Part shown: in pieces, positions 2,560 to 33,484 of the stretch
How the letters are laid out: each line of letters begins with the position of its first letter
Position numbering within the stretch: position 1 is the stretch's first letter
Assembly: GCA_001600635.1 (NCBI GenBank)
Contig: BCKL01000027.1
Location: forward strand, 1-33,824
Direction of reading: 5' to 3'
Source: Leucosporidium creatinivorum
Lineage: Eukaryota > Basidiomycota > Microbotryomycetes > Leucosporidiales > Leucosporidiaceae
DNA length: 33,824 nt
Notes under the pieces: generated by a model
Told to the model about the DNA's origin: nothing
Seen by the model: the letters and a program-made list of their open reading frames with translations, nothing else
Databases searched by the model: none
Position numbers and translations under genes: made by a program

Positions 2560-4773
2560 CTACTGCCCTCCCGCCATCCTCCTCCGAATGTACTCTCTGC
2601 GAAGGCGAACAAGCAACGAGTGAGCTCTACTCCCCTTCTCGCTCGACAGCCTACTGCAGAACACTCACCGAACCTGAGTATGACCCTCTCCCGTCACGAA
2701 CATTTTCCTCAGCGCTGCACTCTCCCAGAGCATGACGCCGAGCTCGCGAGCATAGTTGGCGACGAGCTCAAAGTCGGCTGCTGCTGAGAAGTCGTCGTAG
2801 AGGTAGCCTGTGGCGATGCAAAGTAGCATACGAGGTCAGTGAGAGGCGAGCGAACCGCCCAAGACGGCAAAACCCACCCTCGCTCGACTGAACTCGCTCG
2901 CCCTCCTGCTGCCATAGCCGGATCTGATCGACGACGGTGGTAGGAAGGACCGACGGTGCGCCTTCTCGGATCTGATCCGCTCGCATTTGAGGGTGAGCGC
3001 GAGTGGTGAGGTACGAGATGATCTGGTGCGAGAAATTGAGACGGTCAGCTCCAACTCGGCACGCTCAACGAAGCCCAGAGCGACCTGATTCGCCGTAATC
3101 CCATTCGTCAACCCCCTCCTCACACTCTCCCTCGTAATCTGCCCCGTCACAAAGTTGGGGAACCGCGCCTTGAGGTGCACAAACAGGTTGAGCACGGCGA
3201 TTTGCAGTGGGTTGGCGGTGTAGGCGTAGACCTTGAAGTTGGTCTCGAGGACGAGGAAGCCTCGCTCCTCGTCGGCGTGGCGTGAGGAGACGAGTGGTGG
3301 TGCGGAAGAGGTGAGGGTGGTGGCGAGGCGGGTGGGGTAGAAGTCGGTCGAGTTGGGCTGTTTAAGTGACGGTGAGCGGATAGGTGACAGTGCGAGGAAG
3401 CTCAGATCGTACAGAGGGCTGATAGACGAGACCATAGTCGCACAGGTCGTGCAGCACGGCCTGTTCGGTCTCGGAGAAGCGTTCGGTCGAGTAGCCCTGG
3501 GTGCGAAGGGGGGTCAGTGGGAGCTCAGCCGAAGCTGCAGGCGACTCACTCGACCCAGGACGAGCGATCCGAGCATGAAGAGGAAACCGAGCACTCGAAC
3601 GACGTCCTGTGAGGCGCACAAGAGTCAGCAAACTGGGTTTCCAACGCTCGGCCGACATTGCTCACCGAAGCCTCCTCCAAGTACTGCAGCAATAGATCCC
3701 ACATTTGCGTATTGACATCCTCAAGCAAGAACTGGAAACCTTTCGAGGTGATGGAGAGGGTACGAAGCGATTTGGTCCTGCAGAGAGAAGCGGAGTGAGC
3801 GCCGAAGCGAGCGTCTCGAGCGAAAGCAGCTCACGGCGAGGTCATGAGCTCGCTCCGCATGAGCAGATTGAGCACTCCATCGGATGGTCGCTGGATCCCT
3901 GCTATTGAAGATCCAACCATGAAGTGTTGGATCATCTGCGGAGGGTGAACGAGGGTCAGCTTCGAATCGTTGACTGCTCTGCGAGATCGACGGACCTCCC
4001 ACTGGGTCTCGGCATAGCTGTCGAGGAAGGCAACGTCTACTGCAGGATCCTCATTGAGGCTGGGCACACCGAACGATCCGTGACTCCCTCTGCGAAGGGC
4101 GAGAGGGGAGGGTCAGCTCGAACCCCGAGTCCTGACCTGCAACGCTCGACGTACCCTCCCGTCAGCGCAAGCCTAAAGTTCTCTCGAAAGCGCTGGTGGA
4201 GGTCGAGCTCTTTGCCGTCTCCCATCTCGTCAGAGCTGCCCGGCTTCTCGTTGAGGATGTGAAGGCGAGCGAGGGCCGTGAGAGCTTGCGAGAGGTGTCT
4301 GTAAAGCAGCAGGGGCGTCAGCGGGAGACGATGCTATCCTACCAGCTGCAGCTGCGCTGCTACAGCTCGTCTACGCCTGAGAGAGCGCCGAGCAGGGAAG
4401 CGGGACTGACCTGTGCTCGCCTGAGCTGCCTCCGTCACTCTTGCGTGTCCTGACCCACAGCGCCAAGTCCACCATGGTAACAGATTGCTCGTACCAGAGC
4501 AAGTTGAGCACGATATGCCGCGCCGTCGCCGGTAGCAGCCTGCAGTTCAGCGGATTCGCGTCAGCTCATCGTTCTTTGTAAAGCTGTAGCTCGTCAGCGA
4601 GCTCACCTGAAGATGGACAAGCAGCTGGCAGGTGCATCGTATAGCCTGCCTACCATGCTCGGCGATAAGCGATCGAGGAAAGCGTAGAGGTGCGTCGAGA
4701 AGTCGCTCGAGCCATTGGGAGCAGCGTGGGCTGAGCCGGGCACAATCGTGTGCATCACATCAGCGGAAGCCAT
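2560..4773 (-). CDS. TFB2: General transcription and DNA repair factor IIH subunit Tfb2/p52
   Basis: Core TFIIH subunit that anchors and stimulates the XPB/Ssl2 translocase in promoter opening and nucleotide excision repair; its C-terminus pairs with Tfb5/p8. Twelve exons on the minus strand (4607-4773, 4411-4539, 4155-4298, 3996-4089, 3835-3935, 3666-3777, 3550-3606, 3413-3496, 3085-3357, 2878-3022, 2669-2807, 2560-2596) join to 493 aa, close to human p52 (462) and yeast Tfb2 (513). Recognised segments in order: LYDAPASCLSIFR, RFRENFRLALTGG, QWEMIQHFMVGS, ITSKGFQFLLEDVNTQMWDL, DFYPTRLATTL, ETNFKVYAYTANPLQIAVL, then RFPNFVTGQITRESVRRGL, VVDQIRLWQQE and the C-terminal DFELVANYARELGVMLWES. The start at 4773 gives the expected N-terminus. 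The last exon is only 37 bases; if its intron is kept, translation stops a few residues earlier. Essential in yeasts, so notable this near a telomere. Confidence 0.96.
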
Positions 4774-16620: not shown

Positions 16621-19600
16621 TTATTCCTCGTCATCGTAGTCCTGCAGCAGCTGAGCGTCGTCCTCGAGATGGATATGACGGTAGCCACCGCGCGAGGATC
16701 TCCGTAGCCGCTCCGAGAGGAAGGGGATCTCCATCTCTTGGAAGCGAGAGACGACGGCGCCGACGACGCCGATGATGAACCATCTGTGGACGAAGGAGGT
16801 CAGCGACAGGCGAGAGAGGAGTTCCAAGAGCCGAGAACTTACGGCACCGAGAGCAAGAAATCGACGACGCCCGAGTTGCCTCCCTCCCCAGGCTCGGGCA
16901 GCCTGATCCTTCCACCGGCGCCTCCCCTCCTCCTGATCCACCAGACCGCCGCCATTCCCGCAAAGAGGAAAGGCGCGATGGTCATGGTAGCCCAGAAGAA
17001 CCAGCCGTGACCCGAGTGGCCAGGGCAGGCGTGGGCGTAGCCTCGGTCGAGCGTGAGGCCGCCGACACACTTGGAGTGCGGCACCTTGCGCATGTTGGTG
17101 CGCTCGTACCAGAACTGTTGGTCCCAGGCGCACGTCTCGTCCGACTCAAGAGCCTTGGCGCCGTCGACGAGGACACAAACTCCTCGCGAGTCGCGCTTGT
17201 AGTTGAACTCGCTGTGGAGCGGTAGACAGGGTCAGCGGCGAGTACAGAAAGACGAGAAGCGAGCAAAGACCTACCACTCGAAGTCCTCCTCGGTACAAGG
17301 GCAGTTCTTCTCGATCTTGTGAGGCTGAGGAAGGCGCTCGCCGATGTAGCAGTTGCGATCCCGAATGCGACGATGGTAGAGGGCCTTCAGACAAGATAGG
17401 TCAGCGTCGGGCCACGAAGGGAAAAAGCAAGCTCCACTCACCTGCACACCGAAGAGGCACTGCTCCTCGCGCTCCTCGCTCGGCGACCAGAGTTCAAAGT
17501 CGTCGTTGTTGGGATTAGCCAGGTCGAGGTTGCCTGTGGGGTGACAAGAAGGTCAGCTCGACGTCAAGAGCCGCGCCAGCAGAACTCACACTTGACGTTG
17601 GTGACGGAGGAGAAGTCGAGGTGAACGGCGACGGTCGAGTCTGGCTTGTCGGGGTAGACGCCGAAGAGGATGAACTTGCGACTGGTGTCCATGGGCACCG
17701 TCACGATAGACCTGACGCGAATGCGCTCGCCGAAGGTGTAATCCTGCCACGAGAGGCCCTCGTTGAGAGTGTACGAGACGTGGTCGGTGACCTCCTCGTC
17801 GTTGGCGAGGATGAGGATCGATCCTTGGTCACCGTACTCCCACATGTGGGCGTCCTTGTGCACCTCTTGCCAGGTGAAGCCTCCGTCGCGAGTAAGGAAC
17901 GTGTCCGAGTCAGTGTAGGGGACGAGCGACTCCCCAACGTTGCCGACGGCGAGCATGAGTCCGGTAGCGGAAGGCGACGAGTAGGTGGCGCGAGGGTCTT
18001 TGCGCTCGGTGTAGCCGTGGATATGAAGAGCGCAGTTCTGCGGTGGAGCGAGGTGAGCGAGATTCCTCGATCGAGGCGAGACGAACTCACGGCCGAAGTA
18101 CACTCGTAAGAGCGACCGAGAGCGTCCTTGGTCGGCGGGGTCATGGGCTTCCAGCGTCCACCTGCATGGAGCAAAGACTCAGACTCTGCACGTTCCCCGA
18201 GCTCAACTCGACACACCATCGTTGTGAGTGATCCTCGTCTGCAGCTTCTTGACGCCGCTGAGGGCCGCCTCCTCGGGGTTGCTGACAATGTTCATGACGG
18301 CGATGCCATCGAGACCAATCATCTTCTCGAAGTCGACGAATCCTTTGGCGTTGCGGTTGGCGTAGTCGAGCGAGGGGGAGTAGTAGGTGCCGTTTGAGTT
18401 GGACTTGAAGAGGCTGCCCCACTCGCTTCCAGGGTCGGCGTGTGTAGTGACGTGGAGGAAGACCGAGTCGGTGGTAGACTCGAGGACGGTGTAGGCCTGT
18501 GTGTGAGAGGTCAGCGAGAGGGCAGACGAGGCGAAAAGCGAGACGGCTCACCTGGTTCTCGAGGTGCATGTTAGGCGGGAAGCGAGCCAAAGCAAAGTCC
18601 TTGCCATTTAGCGACACCTTGAGTCCAATGGCGCGAGTGGCCTCGTAGATCTGTGGCGACGGAAAGCGTCAGCCTTGATTCGCAAGCGGACGAGGAAGCG
18701 CCTCGACTCACCTCGGCGACGACCATGTACTCCTCAAAGGTAGCGAATCCAACGATCGAGGGGAAGAGGACCTTCTTGTTGGAGTAGAAGTAGTCACCCG
18801 CGACGAGCTGCAGCGGGTTGTTGTTGGCGTAGACGGCACGCTGACTGCCCTTCTTATCGCGGTAAGACTCGCAGAAGATGATCTTCTCGTCGATGCGTAG
18901 CTTCTTGTCACGTCCCCACGAGCAGATGCGCACGTACTCGTCCACCTTGTACCAGTTGCGACCGTTGTCCTTGGTGTAGTAGGCGATGGCGCGGCAGTCG
19001 GTCGAGTCGGTCTCGGAGCACGATTGCTGGCCGGTCCAGATGAGCCAGTCGGGGCGGATGGGGTGGAAGTCGAGCAGGGGGATACCGAGGCTGTTGGGGT
19101 CGTTGGGAGCGGTAAAGGTGTTCCAGCTGTTGCCCTTGTCGGTGGTGTAGTGGACGGTGCGCGACTCGGTGATGAGGTAGGCGCGATCCTTCGAGTAGGC
19201 GTGCATGGTCATGGCGACGATGTGAGCTCCGTTGGCGACCTGGTTCCAGGAGAATCCTTCGTTGGACGACTGCCAGACGCGGTTCTGGGTGGTGAAGGCG
19301 ACGATGGTCTGCGAGCGGGGAGGAGATATCAGCGCCGAGCTCCCGCAAACGACGGGCGTCAGAACCGACCTTGGACTCTCCAAAGTAGGCCTGGTCGATG
19401 ACGAAGCCGGGGAAGGTGAACTGTGGGTCAAGAAGGAGGTCAGCGAAGCTCTCTACTTCTTTGCGAAAGTTCCGAAACGCACGACTTGGTGAGTGACGAG
19501 GCCGGGCGTCTCCTTGGCGGCGTGACAAGGCTTCATCTTGGGCTCGTCCTTTTTGATCCCGCGCTTGACGTCGCAGGTGTTGCCGGGGATGAGGCGGAAG

Positions 19601-22438
19601 CCGGAAGAGCCCTTGAACTTGTCGTCCTCGCGAACGCACGAACCCTCGGGGATGGCTTCGGGGCCGACGGGGATGCACTCGTCGCCGTCTGGCGCGAAGT
19701 TGTAATCGCTGCAAGTAGAGTCGAGATCAACGCTCGATTCGAAGCGACGAGATGGAGCCAACGCACCACTCGTAGTCCTCATCAGAGCAGGGGCAATCCT
19801 CCTCGATACCGACGGGGTCCTTAAACTTCTCGTGGACGACACAGTCGGCGTCAGGCTTGCGGCGCATGAACCATTGCTGTAGAGGAGAGATATGTGAGCG
19901 AGCTGCTCGGCGATGCGAGGGGCAGCGAACGCACCTTGTGGCCCATCAGACAATCGGGCTTGCCGCCGAGCGTCCTGGCGTACCACTTCTCCATATCGTT
20001 GTTGCCGCACTTGCGCTTGCCGAGAGTATCGAAATCGAGATGGACGACGACGTGACGCTCGCCATTCGAGCCCTTGTCCTTGGAGCGACGAGTGAGGGTG
20101 CCGAGGAGGATGAACTTGAGCGAAGTCGAGTCAGGTATGGTGGTGAGGAGGCGAGCGCGTATCTTGACGTCGAGTTCGACCTTCTTCCTGTTAACAGTAT
20201 CGAGAGTGTCAGCTTCGCGCACGAAACGAAAGACCAGCGCCCGAGACTGACCAGGTCTTGCCGAAATCGAACGAGTACTTGAGCTTGTCGGTAGGTTCTT
20301 CATCCTCGACCATGACGATCAAGCTGCCCTGATCTCCAAACTCGTACTTGTTGGCTCCATCGTCGACCATGCGCCAGGTGAGTCCAGCGTCGGTGGAGAG
20401 GAAGGTGTCGCATTCGTCGTAAGGGAGAAGCCGGTCGCCGACGGATCCAACGCCCATGACGAGACCGGGAGCGGTGGAGGAGAAGACGCGGCCGTAGTTG
20501 TGGGGTTGAGTGACCGAGTGGAGGTGGAGCGAGCAGGTTTGCTGTCGACCGAGACAGGATCAGCGAGCTTCTCGGCGGAGGGCGAACGCCAACTCACAAT
20601 ATCGCTGGTATCGCATTTGACCTTCTTGCCCTCGTCGTCGACTGATGGCGCCTGAATGAGGTTCCAGCGCCCTCCATCGTCGAAGGTGATCTTGGTCTTG
20701 AGGTACTTCTCCTCGCCCGCCTCGACCGCCTCGGGATTGGAGACAGTGTTGACGATGGCGACTCCCTCGACGCTGACGAGCTTCTCAAAGTCGACAATGC
20801 CCATCTTGTTGCGGTTGGTGTTCTCGAGGGAGCGCACAAAGTAGGTGCCGTTCGAGTTGGAGGTGAAGAGGGTCCCCGAGGTGGCGGAAGGGCTTGAGTT
20901 GACGTCGACGAGGATGGAGTGAGGGGTCGACTCGACGATGGTGTAGGCCGACTCCTTGAGGCCATGGCCGTGAGGGAAGAGGGCGCGAGACCAGGTCTTG
21001 CCGTCCTCGGTCACGTAGAGGACCATCTCATTCGAGCCTCCCTCGGTTCCGGCGGACGGGCGAAGGGCGGTGACGAGGTACTTCTGCACTCCTCCAATGC
21101 CAACGACTCCGCGAGCCTCCTTGCCGATGCCGAGGTCGACGAAAGTGGTGTCCTTGTCGAAGAAGTCGGTCGAGGAGTAGAGGCGCGACTCGCGGAGGGT
21201 GCGGGTGCCGCCGAGCGCGCTGGTGAGGGTGTTCTTGACGCTAGACTCGCTCGAGGCAGGCGGTTCCGAAGCGACGCAGTAGACGAGCTCGTCGGCGACG
21301 TACTTCGGGTACTCCTTCTTGTCGTGAGCGAAGATGCAGCGAGTCGTGTAGGACAGGAGAGGTTTGGGAGCGGAAGCGAAGGCGTCTTTGGTGTAGAAGG
21401 TCTGTGTGCGGTGCAGTCGGTTAGCCTTCAACTTGAGATCTCGCGTCTCGGGATGAAGCGAAGCGCCACGCACCTCGTCGTGACAGACGCGACCCTTCCA
21501 TCCGCCCATCTCCTCGCAGCTCTGCCCGGTGAAGAGGATCCAATCCCACTTGTTGGCGTGGAAACTGAGCGTGTTGGCGCTGATGCTGGGAGCGAGCGCC
21601 GATACGAATGACTGCCAGCTCTCGCCGCGGTTCATGGTGCGGTAGTGAGTGGTGCCCGAGGTGAGAATGAAGGCCTGCATTGAAACAGCTTAGCTTGCTG
21701 TACGACATGACCTCAAAAGCAGCCCGCTACTCACGATCTTGGTGTCGAATGGGTGGTCGACGAGCATCATAGCCTCGCCGTGAGGGACGCCGTCGATGAC
21801 CTTCCAACCCTTGCCTTCATCGGTAGAGCGCCAAACGTTCTTGCTGACCGAATCGTGATACATGACCACCTGTAGGGCGAGGTTACGATGTCAGCTGGCG
21901 CTTGCCGGCTCGTGCTCGACTGACTCGACGCCGAACTCGACTCAAAGGAGGTAGCGGGGCAGCTCGAAGCACATGCAATTAACTCCATAGCCCCTCAGGA
22001 ATCCGCTCGAGCTGCCAGCCAGCTCCCCTACACCTGCGAGGCTCTGAGAAGCGAGCGCGCCTCCTTCGATTCGACCCGAGCTGCTGCCCTTCTTGCGCCG
22101 ACTCGAGAGCATCCGCAAGAGCATACAGAGCTACAGAATGACGTGCAGATGCTCCCGCTACCTCTGCATCCTCTCCCGACTCGCTATCGAAGCCCACTTC
22201 GACGCGTCACGCCCCTGCCCCATCTCGCAGCACTGCTAGAGCACGCCACCCTCTGCTGTAAAGCTACAGAGAACGCGGGACTCACTGGGGTATCATCAAA
22301 GTAGAATATCCGTGCTGGTAAATTGTCGAACAGAGTGTGAGAAAGGCCCGGTTCGTCGCTGGCGCTGAGAGCGGTTGGTAGGAGGAGTGAGAGGCAGGCG
22401 GCGATGAGTAGCGACGTGAGCCGCCATGGTGATCGCAT
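16621..22438 (-). CDS. VPS10: Vacuolar protein sorting/targeting receptor Vps10 (sortilin family)
   Basis: Type I receptor that carries carboxypeptidase Y and other hydrolases from late Golgi to endosome. Eighteen exons, starting 22286-22438, 21735-21869, 21474-21674, 20598-21401 and ending 16843-17211, 16621-16783, join in frame to 1483 aa (yeast 1579). Residues 1-26 are a signal peptide. Two tandem Vps10 domains follow, each a ten-bladed propeller with Asp-box repeats ([47 protein letters not shown]) and a Cys-rich 10CC module ([16 protein letters not shown] and [16 protein letters not shown]). The membrane span is about 1377-1398 ([17 protein letters not shown]), then RRR; a second hydrophobic stretch ([11 protein letters not shown]) starts the last exon. 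The tail ends in a Tyr and acidic stretch (QDYDDEE) suited to retromer or clathrin-adaptor sorting. Intron 1 is long (416 bases) against a norm of 50-80; one intron (17385-17441) ends in AAG. Confidence 0.97.
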
Positions 22439-24180: not shown

Positions 24181-25675
24181 TCAAACCAGCTCGTCGGCCT
24201 TACCCCCTCCAACTCCCGGCGACCTCGCCCACTCGAACGCCTTCTCTGACTCCCTAGTAACCTCCAACTCCGTCCTGTAGCTTCCCAGCCTCACGCTGAG
24301 CGGTCTGCTGGCTGCAAGACCCGACCCGCTGACACTGCGAAGCGCCGAAGGGTTCGCGCTCTGGAACTGAGCCATATGACCTCCGAGCTCTCGCTGCACG
24401 ACATCGCCGACAGTGAGGGTGGTGAAGAGGGAAAGAGTGTAGAGCGCTCCAAGAGGGTTGGAGGAGGCGTAGGGCACGTCACTGCAGGACGGTGGACGTC
24501 AGCGAGGCTCGGCGCTTGACTTTTCCTCGCTTGCGACTCACTAGTAGATCCCATCGTCTCCGAATCGCTGTGCGAGAATGGCAGTGATGGCAGCAAAGAC
24601 GGTCGTGTAGGCTGCCGACCGGATGAGCACCCTTCCAATGACGACGACGACCGAGTCGCTGGTTTCGTTCTGACCCCAGAGGTTGCGCCGAAGATGGTAC
24701 AGGTAGACGAGGGTGATAATGGTGTCGGTAGCGCAAGCTCCCCTGTATCGAGACGAGGTGGTCAGCCAAGAGCTCGCGATCGAGATTGCTGACCTTATTG
24801 CGAAGGCCCGCCGCCCGGCGCTCGGTCGACGCTCATTCGGCGAAGGCAGATGAGACTCACCACATCCAGCACATCAGGGCCTTGCGCAGGTCGATGCCAG
24901 GGATCCAATCATCTGGCTGGTAAGAAGTCCACCGCACCGAAGATCTAAGGGAGAGCAGCGCGATACTCAGCTCGGCGTTTCGGATGAGCCCCCTTTGCAA
25001 GCAACTCACGCAGTGGCGGCGATACCTGCGAGAAGAGTGAACGTGGCGAGCGATCCTGTGAGGCTGAGGTAGATGTAGCGAGACGTTGGTTGCTTCATGA
25101 TCTGCGCAGGCGAGAAGTTCGGCGATAGGAAACGAGGAGAGGCGGGCGTCGGCAGAGGCTTACCCTTGATGAGCGGATGCTCAGCGTGATCTGCACCACA
25201 AAAGCGATGACCGACAAGACGATGGGCTCGATAGCTTGAGGCAAGTTGGCCAAAGCGACGCTGGCGAAGGAACGGTCGAACAGCGTTCCATAGTACCACA
25301 GGTCATGGCAGATCAATCCAGTGTAGACCGTGTTGATGAGGACCACTCCATAGCAGACGAGTTTGGTGATTCGCCCGGAGCGATTCCAAGTGGGCGAAGA
25401 GCGAAGGTTGATGAGATGGGAGAGGACGAAGCCGAAGAGGCTTATCTGCAGGAAACCGCCTGTGCGAGAAGTTGGATGAGACAGGAGGACAAAGCGATAC
25501 ATTGAGATTTGCTGCACCTATGTAGAGCGGTCCGAACTGCGAGAGACAAGTGAACAAGGAGCGAGGAAGACGATCAGTCCCAAGCGACTGCGAGAGTGCC
25601 CCGCGCTCCTTTGCTGCTCACCAGTATCTCTGAAGCTCTGTGCGAGATGGGATCGGGTGAGTTGAAGTCAGCCAT
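24181..25675 (-). CDS. Seven-pass membrane protein, DUF6534-like basidiomycete family
   Basis: Predicted integral membrane protein of a large, uncharacterised basidiomycete family with seven helices; function unknown. Exons 25622-25675, 25501-25536, 25164-25445, 25010-25101, 24861-24944, 24542-24742 and 24181-24481 join in frame to 349 aa. Seven hydrophobic segments are visible: LYIGAANLNISLFGFVL, VCYGVVLINTVYTGLICH, IVLSVIAFVVQITLSI, YLSLTGSLATFTLLAGIAA, the ALMCWMWGACATDTIITLV segment, IRSAAYTTVFAAITAIL and LGALYTLSLFTTLTV, with loops and a hydrophilic C-terminal tail of about 80 residues. The short first exon (MADFNSP) is shared in style with the paralogue at 32970. The family assignment is from topology and the loop pattern HLINLRSSPTW, so I am sure of the membrane topology and less sure of the family name. 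It lies immediately downstream of CaaX-A on the same strand. Confidence 0.78.
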
Positions 25676-26428
25676 GGTGGTTGCGGGCGCTGGCGAAGCG
25701 GCTGAGGAGCAAGGTAGAGCAGGAGAACGAAGCGTGGACGGTGGCAGCCAAGGGCGATGATGAGGGAAGGACAGATGCACACAGAGTCCGCGTCGCACTC
25801 TAGCTCGAAGTTCCTACAATTCGTTGTGAAAGAACCAGGCGAGTCGAAATACAACCTCTTGGACGAGCAAGGAAAGTGCCGAGTGGAGCAGAATAATCTC
25901 GCCGAGGCACCTCCGGTTCTCGGAACCTCGACAACCTTGATGAAGGAAGACGAGCGTTGAGTGTGGCGATCTTGCTACTTGGCCACAGCTCGAGACAGCT
26001 GCAGCGTATGCTGAGAGCCTTTCGGTGGGTTGACGGGAACGGCGAAGCGGGGAAGAGACTCGCGGAGCAGCTCGGCGAAAGGCAAAGTGTCGCTGCTTCG
26101 CTTCGAGCGGGATCGCGTCCGCTACGCTCTTACCAGAGACAAAAAATCACTGCCTTGTGTCGCATGGTGCCCCAAGGCAGTCACAGGCTGAGCGATGGCG
26201 AAGTGGGATCAAGCTTCGGCGATCGTGCTTGCTCGAGCTAAAGTTGATGTTGGACCCTCGCTCTCAGCTAGCGAGTCTGGATCTACTACGCCAATCTGAT
26301 AGTACAACACTACTTCTACAAAACTGTTGAGCCTGACCCCATGCAGTCGCATTTTGCCTCTTCACCCCTTCGACCCCCGGCGCCCTGTAGTCCTACGCCT
26401 AGCTCCGCTCCTTTGCGAGGAACCCCGC
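25676..26428. other. Intergenic region between CaaX-A and the seven-pass gene
   Basis: These 753 bases should hold the promoter of the minus-strand seven-pass gene and the 3' region of CaaX-A. Frames here are short and unlike any known family. I see nothing specific. Confidence 0.45.
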
Positions 26429-27068
26429 TCACATCACCGTGCACTCTTGTACGGTGGTTGCCTGTGTTGGTGCTCTCCTTTCGTTTGGTGCAGCGTCGTC
26501 CAGAGCGATGAGCGTGGGTGAGGAAAGAGGGGAAGGGGAGAGCGAAGGGGAGTCGATGAGGACGTCTGTAAAAGAGCAGAGGGGTCAGCTCGAGCTCGGT
26601 GTGAAGACTAGAGATCTTGAAGACCTACAGTGGGTTTCGTAGATCAACTTGGCTTGCTCATGCAGCGCCGAATGGGATGTCGGAGCTCGGCTCGGCTTCG
26701 GCGAGGGTGGAGGCGTGAGGGTGAGAGAGGGCTGTAGAGGTCATCGGGGAGGGTTAGCGATGCTGCACAAGAACATTGAAGACGATTCGAAAGCTCACCT
26801 GTGCCATCTCGCTAAAATCAAGGCTAGAAATGCAGTCCGAAGACGAAGAAGAGCAGCGAGAGAGGGATGGTGTGGATGGTGGTGCTGAGGGCTGACTAGA
26901 GTGTGAACGACTCGAGTTGATAGTTGATATCCTCTTGAGACCTTTGCTGAACCCTATCATCCTCTTGCTCGAGGTGGAAGCGACTGCCGGTTCTTCGGCG
27001 AGCGAGGAAGGGAAAGTCAAGTCGAAAGGAGGAGACTGAGAGCGAGTGCGCTTGCAAGGGAGCTGCAT
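26429..27068 (-). CDS. Small CaaX-box protein A (unrecognised family)
   Basis: Unrecognised family. Exons 26799-27068, 26629-26731 and 26429-26565 join in frame to 169 aa. The protein is Ser/Pro-rich with a basic N-terminus (MQLPCKRTRSQSPPFD), a short ordered motif EQAKLIYETHY at 115-125 and a C-terminal VQECTVM whose last four residues form a CaaX box; Met at the end favours farnesyltransferase. I infer a farnesylated, membrane-attached cytosolic protein. The exon model is supported by CaaX-B, which has the same intron positions and phases (0 and 1), and by CaaX-C. Third-exon coding potential is clear because both A and B end in the same frame with small indels in multiples of three. It has no signal peptide or membrane span. 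A pheromone precursor is possible in principle, but the length and Ser/Pro body are unusual for one. Lies in the left arm of an inverted repeat. Confidence 0.77.
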
Positions 27069-27365
27069 TGTTGAGAGTGTCGAGTGAGGAAAGTAGAGAC
27101 AAGCTGCAAGAAGCTGATCCCGACCAACTTTTTCACTCCACATCTCACCTCGCCCTTCGGGGAGTCAGCTCGCTCGCAAAGCCAGCAGCCGGCCGCTTCG
27201 TCAGCCTGGCGAGCGGGCGGCCTTCGGAGGTGGAGGTCAGAGTCAGAGGCGGAATGTCGGGGGAACATGTTTATCGGAGCTCTTTGATGATGTGGAGCAA
27301 CGAGTAGGAGATGGAGGGAGGCAGAGAAGATGCGAAGTCGTTTCGGCCTCTCTCCCCTTCGCCGA
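26429..27365. repeat. Inverted repeat, left arm (partner 31453-32385)
   Basis: The reverse complement of this stretch matches 31453-32385 almost base for base over the upstream 300 bases and closely over the CaaX coding region and introns. Homology starts at a TCGGCGAAGG sequence and ends about at the CaaX stop codon, beyond which the two copies are unrelated. The arms are 937 and 933 bases with a spacer of about 4.1 kb. There are no terminal repeats or transposase, so it looks like a segmental inverted duplication and not a mobile element. Confidence 0.9.
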
Positions 27366-27693
27366 GGGGCAAGATTTTTCGATGGGCTGCTGAGGTTCAA
27401 GGTGGCGGAAAGGCTGCAGCAAGGTGGCTAGAAATATCTTAGAGATCTACCTTGCTAGAAGCGAACCGGCCCGAAGGCTACAGCGCTGGGTAAGCCCGTT
27501 GAGGCTATCGCCCCGAACTTGCGCCGAAGCCCTTTCTTCACTTTCGAAAGGTGATCTCACACCCCGCATGAACAGATGACTACAGATATTGCTTTCATGT
27601 ACAATGCGACCTTGAAGGTCCCTCCCCCCCGCGCAAATCATCAGCACTCGAGCTCTCCCCTCGGCTCCACACCCGCCCTTTGGCTTTCCCTCC
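27366..27693. other. Intergenic region between CaaX-C and the inverted repeat arm
   Basis: About 330 bases with no recognisable gene. It should contain the CaaX-C 3' region and the distal upstream region of CaaX-A. Confidence 0.4.
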
Positions 27694-28343
27694 TCACATC
27701 ACCTGACACTCCTGCACCACAGTAGGCTGTGAGTGCCTTCTTCTCCTCGCCCTTCTTTTTGCCCGCTTATATTCGCCTTCGTCCACCTCCAAAGCTGGTG
27801 CCAAAGCGGCGAGCGAAACGAGTGAAGTCGAAGCTTGCCGAGATGGAGAAATTGGGCGCTTGACGAGGTGGTCTGAGGCAGGGCAGCGGTCAGCCGAGAA
27901 GAGGGGCGGACTCCGGTACACCTACAATGTGTCTCGTAGATTCTCTGCGCTTGCTCGGGGACTGAAAGAGGTGGAGGCGAGGGATGGGAAGGATTCGGAA
28001 CCGGCTCGGTGGAGAGTGACCGAGAGGGTGGTGGAGTCGGCGTGGAAGGCTGTAGGCTTGCGAATGGTCAGGAAAAGATACTAACCGGGGCTCAGCGAGA
28101 AGAGAGAACTCTCAAGCGCACAAGTGACGAACGGGAGCCGGTGGCAAGTCTGCCGACCGAGGAAACCGCTCGGTGCACTCTTGGGCGAGATGAGGTGGCG
28201 CGGAAATGCAGTCGAGAGAGGTCGCGGGTAGCTCCACTTATGTCCAAGTGCTTCAAGGTCGAAGTTATAGCGGCCAAGGCGCGGGGATGCCTCCAACTCG
28301 TGCTGGAGGGAGACCGAGCTTGTGAGCTTGGTTCGGGCGGCAT
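27694..28343 (-). CDS. Small CaaX-box protein C, diverged paralogue
   Basis: Paralogue of CaaX-A and -B. Exons 2 (27926-28049) and 3 (27694-27872) are clear: they share the intron phase, the central EQAQRIYETHY motif (residues 106-116) and the ending VQECQVM, a CaaX box like those of A and B. The third exon differs by a strongly basic stretch (KRAKRRARRRR) just before the CaaX box, a typical polybasic plus prenyl plasma-membrane signal. Exon 1 is less certain: I use ATG 28343 to 28122 with a GTGCGC donor, since that gives the same phase 0 as the paralogues; its sequence (MPPEPSSQARS and on) does not align with theirs. The total would be 174 aa. An alternative donor (GTTAGT near 28085) fails to keep frame. 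Same strand as CaaX-A, about 0.6 kb upstream of it. Confidence 0.66.
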
Positions 28344-28715
28344 TTCAGGCTGCTGCTTGGCCGCTGAAGAATGATGCTTGCAAGTTAGGAGCATACCAGC
28401 TCGCTGGGAGAAGGCAAGAGGCAGTAGAAGCTGTTTAAAGGTTTGTACGGCTGCTCGGCCTTCCAGTCGGCGGAGGGGTTCGGGCTGACGTTGGGCGACG
28501 TACGATGTGTGAAAATGAAACTAATAAGCTCGTTCGCGGTTGAAGTGACTCTGTCGGTGTCTGTACGAGCATTCTGTAGGCGATTAATGATATCCCCGGC
28601 GAAGGGCCGAGGCTCGAGCGGGCGTGTTTGAAGCTGAGCGCGTCCCCCGTCTCTCGTCTCCCTTTCAAGTCCCTCCCCTCCCTCGAGCCTACCGTCCTGC
28701 AGCTCGTAGCCCAGC
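28344..28715. other. Divergent upstream region of CaaX-C and the sensor-like gene
   Basis: A 372-base gap between two divergent genes. On the plus strand it may hide a first exon of the sensor-like gene: a frame beginning MKLISSFAVEV near 28516 is followed by pyrimidine-rich sequence and AG acceptors (CCTGCAG near 28700, then CCCAG just before the ATG at 28716). I could not join it in frame with confidence. Confidence 0.4.
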
Positions 28716-30934
28716 ATGCATCAAGCTCTTGGGTCGGATAATCACCTACACCGCCGTCAGCGCGCCCTGCTCTCGGACGCTGGGTTGAGCATCAGCACCC
28801 CAGCAGGAGGGGCCGCCTCGACGCCCACAACGGCAGCTCCCGTGGCCACCGAGCCAACTTCCGCCGAAGTCAAGACGACTACAGCAGCTCCAGTAACTAC
28901 TACGCCTGCGGTAGAGACCACTACAACCCCTCCAGGTGAGTCTTTGAAACCTGTTGGAATGCCCGGCAACCGCGCGTTTTCGAGGGACGAAAGGAGACGC
29001 CGAGCGCCGAGAGGGGGGCTGGGAGGAGTCAGGGGAGATGTATGAAAGCAGGAGAAGGGCTGGAGATGGAGCGCACGCTCGCTAGCAGCCTACAGCTCGC
29101 TCCCAGCTTTCACCAAACACTCCTTGTCCCTGCCTTACGCGCCTTGGGCGCTGCGTGCCTCGCTCGCGTTCAAGTGTCGAGCGACGACGGGAAGGGATGT
29201 TGGAAGGGGGGTCCAATTATGTACAGCCTTAGCAAAGAGCTGTCAGGATGTAGCAGGCTCGCTGCAGGACCCTCACCAACCCTCTTTTGCCCTCGCCGAG
29301 ACATCCCAACTGACGATCGCTCTCTTCTCCTACCCGTCAACTTCTAGCCGTCGAGATTACCACAACCAGCGCCGCCCCTACTACGACTACGACCACGACT
29401 CCCGCCGAGGTCACTACGGTGCGTTTCTGGCCTCGGAACTAACAATCTCAACTCGGCACCGAGCTGGGCTGACCCGCTTTTCGCTCCACAGACCACGACT
29501 ACGCCAGAGCCTACTACCATCAGCTCGAGCACCACAACCTTGTCCACGACTGTACCTCCCACCACCTCCTCGACGACAACGGATCGCGTCGTCCCCTCGT
29601 CAACGACCCAATCAACCACCTCGCGCATGGCCACCTCGATTGCCTCTTCCTCCTCCTCCGCCTCTACCGAGGAAACCACCGCCCCTCTCTCCACTCGCAC
29701 CACCGTCGTGGTAGTCAATGGAAAGACGACGACCTCTACCGGACTCGCCTCGGGAACCGCCCTCGCCAACTCGAACAAGTCCAGCGATGGACCTTCCACT
29801 GGCGCCGTCGTCGGCATCGTCGCTGGAGCCCTTCTCGGAGTCGTCGTCATTGCTGCCATCATCGGCTATTTGCTCAAGAAGAAGCGCTCGCGCGACGATG
29901 ATGAGCCTTCGCCGTTCGACCGCGACGAGTTCAGGAGGACCTCGGCCATGCTGGATGATGATGTTGACGTCTACGCGGGAGGAGGATCGTTCGGTGGATC
30001 GCACCATGGACATGGCGACGTCTACAGCCAAGGACACTCGCCCCAGATGAGCGAGTACTCGATGCGCGAGCTCAACCGCTCCAACACGACCGGATCGGCT
30101 GGAGTCCTCCCTGGCCTCGCGCGCGGCGGAGCGCTCCAGAACCCTCGCCCTCCCACCGCCATCATGAACCACTACAACCACCAGCAGATGATGCCCTCCT
30201 TCCAGCCCGGTCAAGTCGTCCCCTCCGCCCCTGGTGGACCCGCCCCTTTCACCGCCTTCAACGCTACCCCTTCCTCGGACAACGGCATGGCGCTCTACGG
30301 TGGCTACCCCGTTCCTCAGCACCAGCAAGCTCAACTCGACCGCGTCGGAGGTCTCTACGCCCCTCAGCACGCCCCTCAGCAAGCTCCCATCAATGAATGG
30401 CCCGCTCAAGGCTACCCCGCCGGCCCCAACGGCGGCTGGATGCCCCAGCAGCGCTCGACTTCGCCCATGCAGTCTCAGCAGGGTCACCTCGAGCGCGGCC
30501 CTTCCAACGCCTCCGCCTACTCGGTTCGCTCGGACGGCTTCGGCAACGGCTCGGCGGGCATGGCTCCCCTTCCTCACGCCGCCACGAGGGGGTCACCCAA
30601 CGCCAGCAGGGAGGGATCGAGCGAGGGCCATGGTCGACCCCTCAGCGCCGTGCGCGAAGATTACGACGACCAAGCAGACCTCTCGAGCCGCAGCGGCACT
30701 CCCACCAACTCGAACGTGCAGCAGACGTTCTTCTCGCATGGGAGGGAGGATTCACTCGACGCGAGCGGAAGGGCGGGGAGCATCAACACCCAATTGCCGA
30801 GGTATGAGATGATGGATCAGAGGGAGAGGGAGAGGGCCGAGCATGAGTGGAGTGGGGCGACGGGGGAGAGGCAGAGGAGGTTGAGCATTAGGAATGGAGG
30901 GTTGGATGAGGACGATGCGTACGGTGGGATCTAG
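28716..30934 (+). CDS. Single-pass, Ser/Thr-rich membrane protein (Mid2/Wsc/Skg6-like sensor architecture)
   Basis: Predicted cell-surface protein with the layout of fungal wall-stress sensors: a long Ser/Thr/Pro ectodomain (about 25-200) suited to O-mannosylation, one membrane span at about 201-222 (GAVVGIVAGALLGVVVIAAI) followed by KKKR, and a cytoplasmic tail of about 350 residues rich in Gln, Pro, Ser and Gly with Tyr-containing repeats. Exons 28716-28935, 29348-29418 and 29492-30934 join in frame to 577 aa. The ATG used lacks a signal peptide, and an HRRQ site follows, so an upstream exon is probably missing. Intron 1 is long (412 bases). No globular WSC or Cys-rich domain is seen, so the exact family stays open. 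It lies in the spacer of the inverted repeat, divergent from CaaX-C. A large antisense open frame overlaps it and is taken as a composition artefact. Confidence 0.82.
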
Positions 30935-30937
30935 ATG

Positions 30938-30997
30938 GTGAGTCTGCTACTCTCGCTCGCGTCTTCGAGGCTGAAGCTGACCCTCCCCTCGTCGCAG
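30938..30997 (+). other. Probable intron in the 3' untranslated region of the sensor-like gene
   Basis: Three bases after the TAG stop the sequence shows a full local-style intron: GTGAGTCTGC donor, GCTGACC branch and GTCGCAG acceptor, 60 bases long. Coding continues on neither side in the sensor frame, so the intron would lie in the untranslated region. Confidence 0.5.
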
Positions 30998-31452
30998 ACC
31001 CTCTCCCCTTCCAACCCCCTCGGCTCAGCGCCAGCATACCCCACGCTCCACCACAGCGTTGTCTCTACTCTTTCCCACTCGTTCGACTCTTCTTTCGCTA
31101 TCCCCCTCCCCCTTCCGGCAGCGAGGCTTGATGCCTTCGCTTGCCGGCTTTTTTCAACCCCCCTTCTTTCGGTCCGTCGCCAGGAGACGAGATGCTTGCT
31201 TCCTCATGACCACCACCCATGCCACGTTCATCAGGCTTTACTCCTTCGTATATACCCCCTCCGCTTCCCCTGCACAGACTCTATGCACATTCAGACTCGG
31301 CGAGGATGAGATGCGAAGCGAAGCGCGAGCAGAGATGTAGGCTCCGCGGGCAGTTTCGCTTCGAGCATGGACCGTCTCTAGATGACTCTGGCTACCCTGG
31401 TGCAGCCTCTCGCCCTCCGCGACTCTCAACAGCTGAGCGGATTTCCTGCTTC
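30998..31452. other. Sensor-like gene downstream region and distal upstream region of CaaX-B
   Basis: Pyrimidine-rich on the plus strand. I see no gene here. The sequence is unique up to the start of the right inverted-repeat arm at 31453. Confidence 0.4.
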
Positions 31453-32385
31453 TCGGCGAAGGGGACGAGGCCGAAACGACTTCGCATCGTCTCTTGCTTC
31501 CGCCCCCACCTCGTACTCGTTGCTCCATATCATCAAAGAGCTCCGATATACGTGTCCCCCCGACATTCCGCCTCTGACTCTGACCTCCACCTCCGAAGGC
31601 CGCCCGCTCGCCAGGCTGACGAAGCGGCCGGCTGCTGGCTTTGCGAGCGAGCTGACTCCCCGAAGGGCGAGGTGAGACGTGGAGTGAAAAAGCTGGTCGG
31701 GGTCAGCTTCTTGCAGCTTGTCTCTACTTTCCTCACTCGCATCAATTTAAAACAATGCAGCTCCCTTGCAAGCGCACTCGCTCTCAATCTCCTCCTTTCG
31801 ACTTGACCTTCCCTCCCTCGCTCGCCGAAGTGCCGGCAGTCGCTTCCACCTCGAGCAAGAGGATGATAGGGTTCAGCAAAAGTCTCAAGAGGATATCAAC
31901 TATCAACTCCAGTCAGCCCTCAACACCACCTTCCACTCCTTCCCTCTCTCGCTGCTCCTCTTCGTCTTCGGACTGCATTTCAATCCTTGATTTGAGCGAG
32001 ATGGCACAGGTGAGCCTTCGAATCGTCTTCAGTGCCCTTTAACTGCTTTTCTGACCCTCCCCGATGGCCTCTACAGCCTTCTCTCACCCTCACGCCTCCA
32101 CCATCGCCGAAGCCGAGCCGAGCTCCGACCTTCCATTCAGGTCTGCATCAGCAAGCCAAGTTGATCTACGAAACCCACTGTAGGTCTTCAAGACCTCTAA
32201 TTTTCACACTGAGCTCGAGTTGACCCCCCTGCGCCTTCACAGACGTTCTCATCGACTCCCCCTCCCCCTCTCCCTCCCCTTCCCCTCTTTCCTCACCCAC
32301 GCTCATCGCTCTGGACGACGCTGCACCACACGAAAGGAAAACACCGAAGCAGGCGACCACCGTACAAGAGTGCACGGTGATGTAA
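31453..32385. repeat. Inverted repeat, right arm (partner 26429-27365)
   Basis: The right arm of the inverted duplication described for 26429-27365. It carries the upstream region and all three exons of CaaX-B. The non-coding upstream 300 bases are at least as well conserved as the coding part, including a GTGAGACGTGG to TTGCAG segment that resembles a leader intron (about 31672-31718). Confidence 0.9.
31755..32385 (+). CDS. Small CaaX-box protein B, near-identical paralogue of A
   Basis: Exons 31755-32009, 32077-32179 and 32243-32385 join in frame to 166 aa. Relative to CaaX-A there are about a dozen and a half substitutions and two in-frame length differences (five residues lost in exon 1, two gained in a Ser-Pro run of exon 3). 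The central QQAKLIYETHY (110-120) and the C-terminal ATTVQECTVM are kept, so the CaaX box is intact. Keeping frame through indels while splice sites (GTGAGC, GTAGGT, CTACAG, TTCACAG) stay unchanged suggests both copies are functional. As for A, I infer a farnesylated protein of unknown role. The partner seven-pass paralogue follows about 0.6 kb downstream on the same strand, mirroring the A side. Confidence 0.77.
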
Positions 32386-32969
32386 ATAGGCTAGGGTAGC
32401 TCAAAAGCAAGCTGAGCTTGGCTGCAGCATGAGGCTCGGCGCTAAACGGGAGGGTCGCTGTACGTTTGTAGACGGACGAGTGTGGCTATTGGTCGTGTCA
32501 ACTGTTGTGCCAATTAGTTTTAGTGGTGTGCTATCAGTTCTCGCATCGACTCGACGTCCTGCTGCGACGAGAAAGAGGACAGCAGCTCGGCGCTCGGCTT
32601 CGGCGAGCCATAAATCACCCCGCTGCGAAGGCTCCAAGCACTCACAACGAAGTGGGGATCGGAAGGATCGCGAGAGACTTTCCCTCCTCTCCCATAGAGT
32701 GATGAAGACACCGGGACTGCCTCAATTCTGTAGGTTTCTAGAGCCGACTGTGCCTCGCCGAGCTTCTCCTCACCTTCCATCCTCGTCGCCGGGATCAGCT
32801 CACTCAACGCTTCGGAGTGGCTCCTCGCGCCTAGTCTTGCAGCCTGAAGATGTACAGGCGAACTCCTCATTGCTGTTCAGGCGCATGACAGCCTCCTCCT
32901 CTCTCCCTCCCCCCTCCGTTTCATTTCTTCTGCGCTCCACTGAGCCTCTGCACCGACCTCCAGCTGCCA
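32386..32969. other. Intergenic region between CaaX-B and the second seven-pass paralogue
   Basis: About 580 bases, the counterpart of 25676-26428 on the mirrored side, but I see no obvious sequence match between the two. It contains two copies of the GGCTCGGCGCT/AGCTCGGCGCT motif (32433 and 32584) and no recognisable gene. Confidence 0.4.
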
Positions 32970-33484
32970 TGGCGGATCTCACATCTACTCAACCAGCTTC
33001 TTTAGGACTTGCAGAGACCTTGGTGAGCATCCTCTCGTTCTTGCGACTGATCCGAGCTGCGAGAGCTCGAAGCTGACCTTCGCCCTCGCTTTTCGTCTCT
33101 ACGCTACCCCCGGGATCTCAGCTACTTCCAATACTCGTTGGAGCCATGTTTCAAATCGGTCTATACGGCTTCATCATCTCCCATCTCATCAACTTACGGT
33201 CCTCACCGACCTGGACTCGCGCCAGCCGTTTCACTCGGGCAATCTGCTACGGCGTCGTCTTCCTCAACACGGGATACACAGGGCTCATTGCACATGACAT
33301 CTGCTACTATGGCACGCTCTCGAAGCGCGACTACATGTCCATCTCGGACGGCACGGTCCCTCAGTCGGTGGAGCCGGTTGTGCTCGCTACCATCGCTCTC
33401 ATCGTACAGAACACACTCGCTGTTCGGTCTTCGAGGGTGAGTATTGGATTGAGCCTCACGAGCTCACGCGCATTTATAGCGTAG
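32970..33484 (+). pseudogene. Partial seven-pass membrane protein paralogue (DUF6534-like)
   Basis: Exon 1 (32970-33020, MADLTSTQPASLGLAETL) is followed after an intron by an exon from about 33122 that starts LLPILVGAMFQIGLYGFIIS and runs to about 33437 (NTLAVRSSR). It aligns end to end with the first three exons of the gene at 24181-25675: shared HLINLRSSPTW, CYGVV, YTGLI.HD..YYGTL and the VQ.TL..RSSR end. In place of the second intron of that gene, the two segments are here one continuous exon. Only three of seven membrane helices can be read; after the GTGAGT at 33438 I find no match to later exons in the remaining 387 bases, and reading through stops at 33484. Either it is a truncated duplicate or the rest lies beyond the window after a long intron. 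Confidence 0.68.

Follow-up and report, generated by a model that had tools for sequence, protein, structure and literature searches.

The window analysed here comprises the first 33,824 nucleotides (C27:1-33824) of contig BCKL01000027.1 of the basidiomycete Leucosporidium creatinivorum, and the genome assembly searched (GCA_001600635.1) has 27.7 Mb in 63 contigs. The right-hand part of the window carries genes of two families, one coding for DUF6534-like seven-pass membrane proteins and the other for proteins that end in a CaaX motif. It is the left edge of a larger local array of about 52 kb (C27:24-76 kb). The six seven-pass genes of the array lie at 24-58 kb, and its six CaaX-family loci, five intact ones and a relic, at 26-76 kb. 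Past the window, the contig has four further seven-pass genes, of which two are broken, and another three CaaX-family loci, the relic being one of them. The features are as follows.

24184..25675, minus strand: 7TM-A, seven-pass DUF6534-like protein of 348 amino acids (aa), seven exons, intact
26432..27068, minus strand: CaaX-A, 169 aa, three exons, end CTVM
27697..28394, minus strand: CaaX-C, 191 aa, three exons, with a polybasic stretch and then VVQECQVM
28718..30934, plus strand: Ser/Thr-rich, probably single-pass gene of the spacer, as open frames (first exon starting near 28718; the last frame, at 29348-30934, is long)
31755..32382, plus strand: CaaX-B, 166 aa, three exons, end CTVM
32969..33436, plus strand: first two exons of 7TM-B (123 aa), whose remainder probably lies past an assembly gap
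26431..27488, minus strand: inverted CaaX duplication, left arm, with the gene and its upstream DNA
31330..32383, plus strand: inverted CaaX duplication, right arm
C27:38819 to at least 40334: 7TM-C, open spliced model
C27:54234-52710: 7TM-D, frame change inside exon 2
C27:56282-54806: 7TM-E, frame change at a 26-base direct repeat in the last exon
C27:58285-56813: 7TM-F, open spliced model
C27:59395-59083: CaaX-family relic, CaaX end absent
C27:73809-73207: CaaX-E, end VQECMVM
C27:76661-76017: CaaX-F, end VEQECGVM

The original prediction described this region as two mirrored cassettes, each consisting of a CaaX gene and a seven-pass gene. The layout is real, as CaaX-A and CaaX-B are confirmed as inverted copies and 7TM-A is confirmed as a gene, but the plus-strand seven-pass gene is incomplete in the window. 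The mirrored pair is also not a self-contained unit, given the further seven-pass and CaaX-family loci downstream on the contig, and position 33484, which had been taken as a cassette boundary, merely marks the end of an open frame. When CaaX-A and its upstream DNA (26431-27488) are aligned with the CaaX-B arm (32383-31330), the identity is 87% over 1,072 columns, in inverted orientation. It drops to 55% immediately after the stop codon and is 41% beyond the far end. The exons are 94, 92 and 92% identical and the introns 81 and 86%. In the 5' DNA, the identity is 71% at 31330-31502 and 94% at 31503-31754. The latter stretch, with its mirror, covers about 250 bp before the two start codons, is level with the exons and above the introns, and is possibly a conserved promoter or 5' leader. 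The two proteins are 91% identical, with a nonsynonymous divergence (dN) of 0.039, a synonymous divergence (dS) of 0.18 and a dN/dS of 0.22 (164 codons). No part of the two genes looks freshly converted, because dS is similar in exon 1 (0.16), exon 2 (0.21) and exon 3 (0.19).

The seven-pass genes have a different history. As originally noted, these copies are far more diverged than the CaaX copies: 7TM-A and 7TM-B share 54% amino acid identity with a dS of 1.69, compared with 91% and 0.18 for CaaX-A and CaaX-B. 7TM-A and 7TM-D share 78% identity (dS 0.69), and in the seven-pass tree 7TM-A joins 7TM-D (support 0.997), with 7TM-B, 7TM-C, 7TM-E and 7TM-F set apart (0.981); the inner splits of the latter four are weaker (0.784 and 0.837). 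This tree was calculated with 7TM-E lacking its last exon, with 7TM-D lacking its broken stretch, and with one of the five outgroup loci (L015, which has a scrambled model) omitted. Because dS is 0.18 for the CaaX pair and 1.69 for 7TM-A and 7TM-B, and because 7TM-A groups with 7TM-D, the duplication of the CaaX genes seems far more recent than the separation of the seven-pass genes next to them, unless gene conversion has refreshed the CaaX genes. A joint duplication of a two-gene cassette is therefore rejected on the gene trees and dS values, gene conversion being the remaining way out, and the earlier idea that the pair was kept or created twice is not sustained by these discordant histories.

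All five intact CaaX models have three exons, intron phases 0 and 1, and a CxVM end at the stop codon (CTVM in CaaX-A and CaaX-B, CQVM in CaaX-C, CMVM in CaaX-E and CGVM in CaaX-F), with the qualification that the intron 1 donor of CaaX-F was picked by demanding phase 0, such that its phase is partly a matter of choice, and that the first-intron donor of CaaX-C (GTGCGC) is a weaker call. CaaX-A and CaaX-B are both open and have GT-AG introns. It is because of the three exons, the common intron phases and the CxVM end in each of the five models that the CaaX genes are regarded as genuine, and CaaX-A and CaaX-B are under constraint as judged from their sequences. The notion that these frames are chance or decayed sequence could draw on their low-complexity Ser/Pro-rich composition, on the existence of one relic copy, and on the Pfam scan of the whole CaaX-B, CaaX-C and CaaX-E proteins, in which no match that counts is found (the sole listing is a chance match of CaaX-E, 0.94). 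This notion is very hard to reconcile with the dN/dS value of CaaX-A and CaaX-B and with the recurrence of the same intron phases and end in five of five models, and hardly any weight is given to it. At the relic locus (59 kb), none of three frames, read as far as the following gene, has a CaaX end.

The intact CaaX proteins have 159-191 residues, of which proline, serine and threonine together make up 34-46%. Hydropathy analysis, at the cut used, finds a hydrophobic or membrane segment in none of the five. An exon-2 segment, [LV]xx[QE]AxxI[YF][EA]T[HP], is common to all five, and the tail [RK]-x-P-x-Q-A-x-x-V-Q-E-C is kept among CaaX-A, CaaX-B and the otherwise diverged CaaX-E. In the whole assembly, the CaaX-tail pattern, which would overlook any family member with another tail, has four exact matches and one at one mismatch, all five being on C27; the control gives no forward match and two reverse matches. 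A looser second pattern, allowing up to three mismatches, points to places on contigs C2, C15 and C31, which are rejected, as an arginine replaces the cysteine and there is no stop at the tail. A weak CaaX match on contig C33 (E 0.0036) is rejected because its gene model is incoherent. None of the solved structures matched CaaX-B, and relatives were not found in two scans of viral contigs and two scans of prokaryote genomes. The CaaX proteins make up a diversifying family that has not been described before; they are probably farnesylated, and they are predicted to be cytosolic and disordered.

The spliced model of 7TM-A has GT-AG introns, a stop codon at its end and no internal stop. The models of 7TM-C and 7TM-F are also open, and those of 7TM-D and 7TM-E are broken. 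Hydropathy segments were counted for three proteins and number, at the cut used, seven in 7TM-A, seven in 7TM-C and six in 7TM-F. Two of the six copies were scanned as whole proteins against the Pfam family DUF6534 (PF20152), and both score below its curated cut-off of 28.2: 7TM-A, in an earlier model differing around exons 4-5, has 24.3 bits (E 7e-5), and 7TM-F has 18.8 bits (E 0.0038). In both proteins, the DUF6534-like stretch is in the second half. A genome search for DUF6534 gives at least 21 pieces at E values up to 1, on many other contigs; none of those listed is on C27, so the C27 copies form a diverged branch. Going by these comparisons, the C27 seven-pass proteins are related to DUF6534, but diverged. 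Among solved structures, 7TM-F has two chance-level enzyme matches only (E 0.26 and 0.27). 7TM-A has an extra intron of 58 bp at 25460-25517 (minus strand), and the modelled paralogues are without an intron there.

The seven-pass proteins were originally said to have no described function. This needs an update, as DUF6534 proteins have been proposed, on machine-learning predictions only, as a candidate new class of fungal G protein-coupled receptors (GPCRs) (PMC12842992). All 767 consensus candidates for this class are in Agaricomycotina (PMC12842992).

Each of the six seven-pass genes is preceded by a conserved element of about 42 bp, whose core lies 202-237 bp ahead of the start codon; in the window, the element is at 25895-25936 (minus strand) and 32724-32765 (plus strand). 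It is kept although most pairs of seven-pass genes are near saturation at synonymous sites, and it is possibly a promoter element. A 25-base form of the element, searched with three mismatches allowed, occurs only at 7TM-B, 7TM-C and 7TM-F in the 27.7 Mb. The element was not found upstream of any of the five intact CaaX genes, where the best scores are -7 to -21, compared with a median of -14 and a 95th percentile of -2 for 300 random stretches of 700 bp from about the first 32 kb. Only the CaaX result is informative, because the matrix used for scoring was derived from the upstream regions of the six seven-pass genes.

The window ends at a gap of 3,250 N (C27:33825-37074), which cuts 7TM-B. 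Past the gap, at C27:37376-38304, there are seven-pass exons that could be the 7TM-B remainder, and we infer that they belong to the same gene as 7TM-B exons 1-2. The interval of about 3.9 kb, including the N gap, between exon 2 and these exons (C27:33437-37375) may reflect a misassembly, or else an intron that is long or has been invaded. The spacer between CaaX-A and CaaX-B has, as originally noted, a diverged third paralogue, CaaX-C (end CQVM), and it also has a Ser/Thr-rich open frame with one hydrophobic stretch, as read by eye. The long last frame of this gene (29348-30934) matches no Pfam family above the family's cut-off.

Further along the contig, an inverted copy of 219 bp with 92% identity is found beyond 7TM-C (C27:40629-40847) and beyond 7TM-D (52147-51938), one copy being some 2 kb beyond a frame of the dynamin family (48804-49829). 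Judging from this inverted copy, a larger inverted duplication seems to include the array. On the other side, conserved neighbours in the window are TFB2 at 2836-3513 (minus strand) and a VPS10/sortilin gene at 17564-21689 (minus strand), which has more than one Vps10 stretch.

The adjacency of the two families is seen at three of the six CaaX-family loci, where a seven-pass gene of the same strand comes next downstream, at distances of about 750 bp (CaaX-A), 580 bp (CaaX-B) and 800 bp (the relic at 59 kb). As all three are in one array, they are not independent, and no P value is given. CaaX-C, CaaX-E and CaaX-F do not directly precede a seven-pass gene: the next gene after CaaX-C is CaaX-A, and the closest seven-pass gene found is about 15 kb away from CaaX-E and about 18 kb away from CaaX-F. 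None of the DUF6534 places on other contigs has a match of the CaaX-tail pattern, and no linked pair of a CaaX and a DUF6534 gene was found described in the titles and abstract openings of the literature.

A functional pairing of the CaaX and seven-pass proteins is possible, and it is the main rival among the explanations of this adjacency. The farnesylated CaaX protein would then be a cytosolic adaptor or regulator of the adjoining receptor-like seven-pass protein, and the linkage would have been kept for that reason. The repeated same-strand order and the clustering of both families within the same 52 kb are in agreement with this, as is the proposal that DUF6534 proteins are candidate GPCRs (PMC12842992). 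However, the gene trees of the two partners disagree, half of the CaaX-family loci lack an adjoining seven-pass gene, CaaX-tail matches are confined to C27 when DUF6534 matches occur on other contigs too, and the upstream element of the seven-pass genes is not shared by the intact CaaX genes. A functional pair is therefore considered a tentative explanation, with clearly less than an even chance of being correct.

The explanation towards which we lean, with modest confidence, is that of a birth-and-death array of two unrelated families, namely DUF6534-like seven-pass proteins and undescribed, disordered proteins with a CxVM end that would serve as lipid-anchored adaptors, the adjacency being historical. 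Both families would have multiplied side by side through tandem and inverted duplication. The frame changes inside an exon in 7TM-D and 7TM-E and the relic state of one CaaX locus are what birth and death would lead one to expect. Most simply, the adjacency is then a by-product of duplication within one small array and not the mark of a co-inherited pair. CaaX proteins are generally processed by farnesylation, trimming and methylation. Those of the array would be made in the cytosol, the cysteine of the CxVM end would be farnesylated, the tail would be trimmed and methylated, and the processed protein would stay attached to a membrane at its inner face. The conserved exon-2 segment, together with the Pro/Ser/Thr-rich stretch that precedes it, may bind a partner, such that the CaaX proteins would act as lipid-anchored adaptors, with receptor-like proteins as their neighbours.

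Several points weigh against this birth-and-death explanation. Saturation makes the dS values between the seven-pass genes imprecise, and if the CaaX genes have undergone gene conversion, an older joint duplication could be masked. The order of a CaaX locus followed by a seven-pass gene on the same strand occurs three times, and a purely accidental neighbourhood would not need such recurrence. Also, one of the three-mismatch tail matches (C15:165124), which is without the cysteine and without a stop, sits 3.5 kb from a DUF6534 place (C15:168599). Finally, the prenylation, membrane location and partner binding of the CaaX proteins are deduced from sequence.

It has also been considered that the locus is a lipopeptide ligand-receptor module outside the mating-type locus, in which the CaaX proteins are precursors that release their farnesylated tails from the cell, with the seven-pass proteins detecting them. 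The tail shared by CaaX-A, CaaX-B and CaaX-E would fit such a ligand, and a Glu-Arg pair, which we take to be a basidiomycete pheromone processing site, precedes the tail in CaaX-A and CaaX-B; it is absent from the tails of CaaX-C, CaaX-E and CaaX-F. The inverted repeats of CaaX-A and CaaX-B resemble those in which the MAT A1 pheromone genes of red yeasts are reported to be embedded (PMC3236058). Against a cut-off tail as the product are the length of the proteins, the three-exon structure of their genes and the conserved internal motif, which would not be part of such a tail. Moreover, exon 3 is not better conserved than the other exons (dN for CaaX-A and CaaX-B is 0.052, compared with 0.032 and 0.041 in exons 1-2), and the seven-pass genes are not STE3 genes. 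The STE3 family (PF02076) has matches in the genome only at C25:435951-436551, such that a STE3 mating-receptor locus is rejected for the array, whose neighbours are VPS10 and TFB2. When two STE3 loci of 3.3 kb were scanned for CaaX-like ends, short frames but no evident pheromone type were found. The lipopeptide module is therefore judged improbable. On the boldest reading, the array is an orphan system of a lipopeptide (or lipoprotein) and its receptor that lies away from the mating-type locus. A new CaaX family and receptors of the DUF6534 type would make up this system, and its inverted repeats would give it the organisation of a pheromone/receptor (P/R) mating locus; this reading is considered quite improbable.

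Among known systems, Snowball (snb1) of mushroom-forming fungi is likewise a basidiomycete seven-pass orphan, but it belongs to another family, DUF6533, and a linked CaaX gene is not described in the available part of that report (PMC10949477). The copies described here are like the DUF6534 (PF20152) proteins in their hydrophobic segments (seven in 7TM-A and 7TM-C, six in 7TM-F) and in the DUF6534-like stretch of their second half, the difference being that 7TM-A and 7TM-F score below the Pfam cut-off. The published GPCR candidates differ further in that the consensus set is entirely from Agaricomycotina, with function predicted only (PMC12842992). In the C27 array, an undescribed CaaX family thus adjoins a seven-pass type recently predicted to be receptors (PMC12842992), and if the two were shown to interact, the CaaX proteins would be candidate partners of DUF6534-type proteins.

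The likeness to mating-type loci is in the layout. As reported for the red-yeast MAT A1 locus, CaaX genes are in inverted repeats (PMC3236058), and as in the basidiomycete P/R mating locus more generally, seven-pass genes are linked to CaaX genes. A short CaaX pheromone precursor is typical of the P/R locus, whereas the C27 proteins are longer, with an internal conserved motif encoded in genes of three exons. In addition, the receptor-type family of this array is DUF6534-like instead of STE3, and its neighbours in the window include VPS10 and TFB2.

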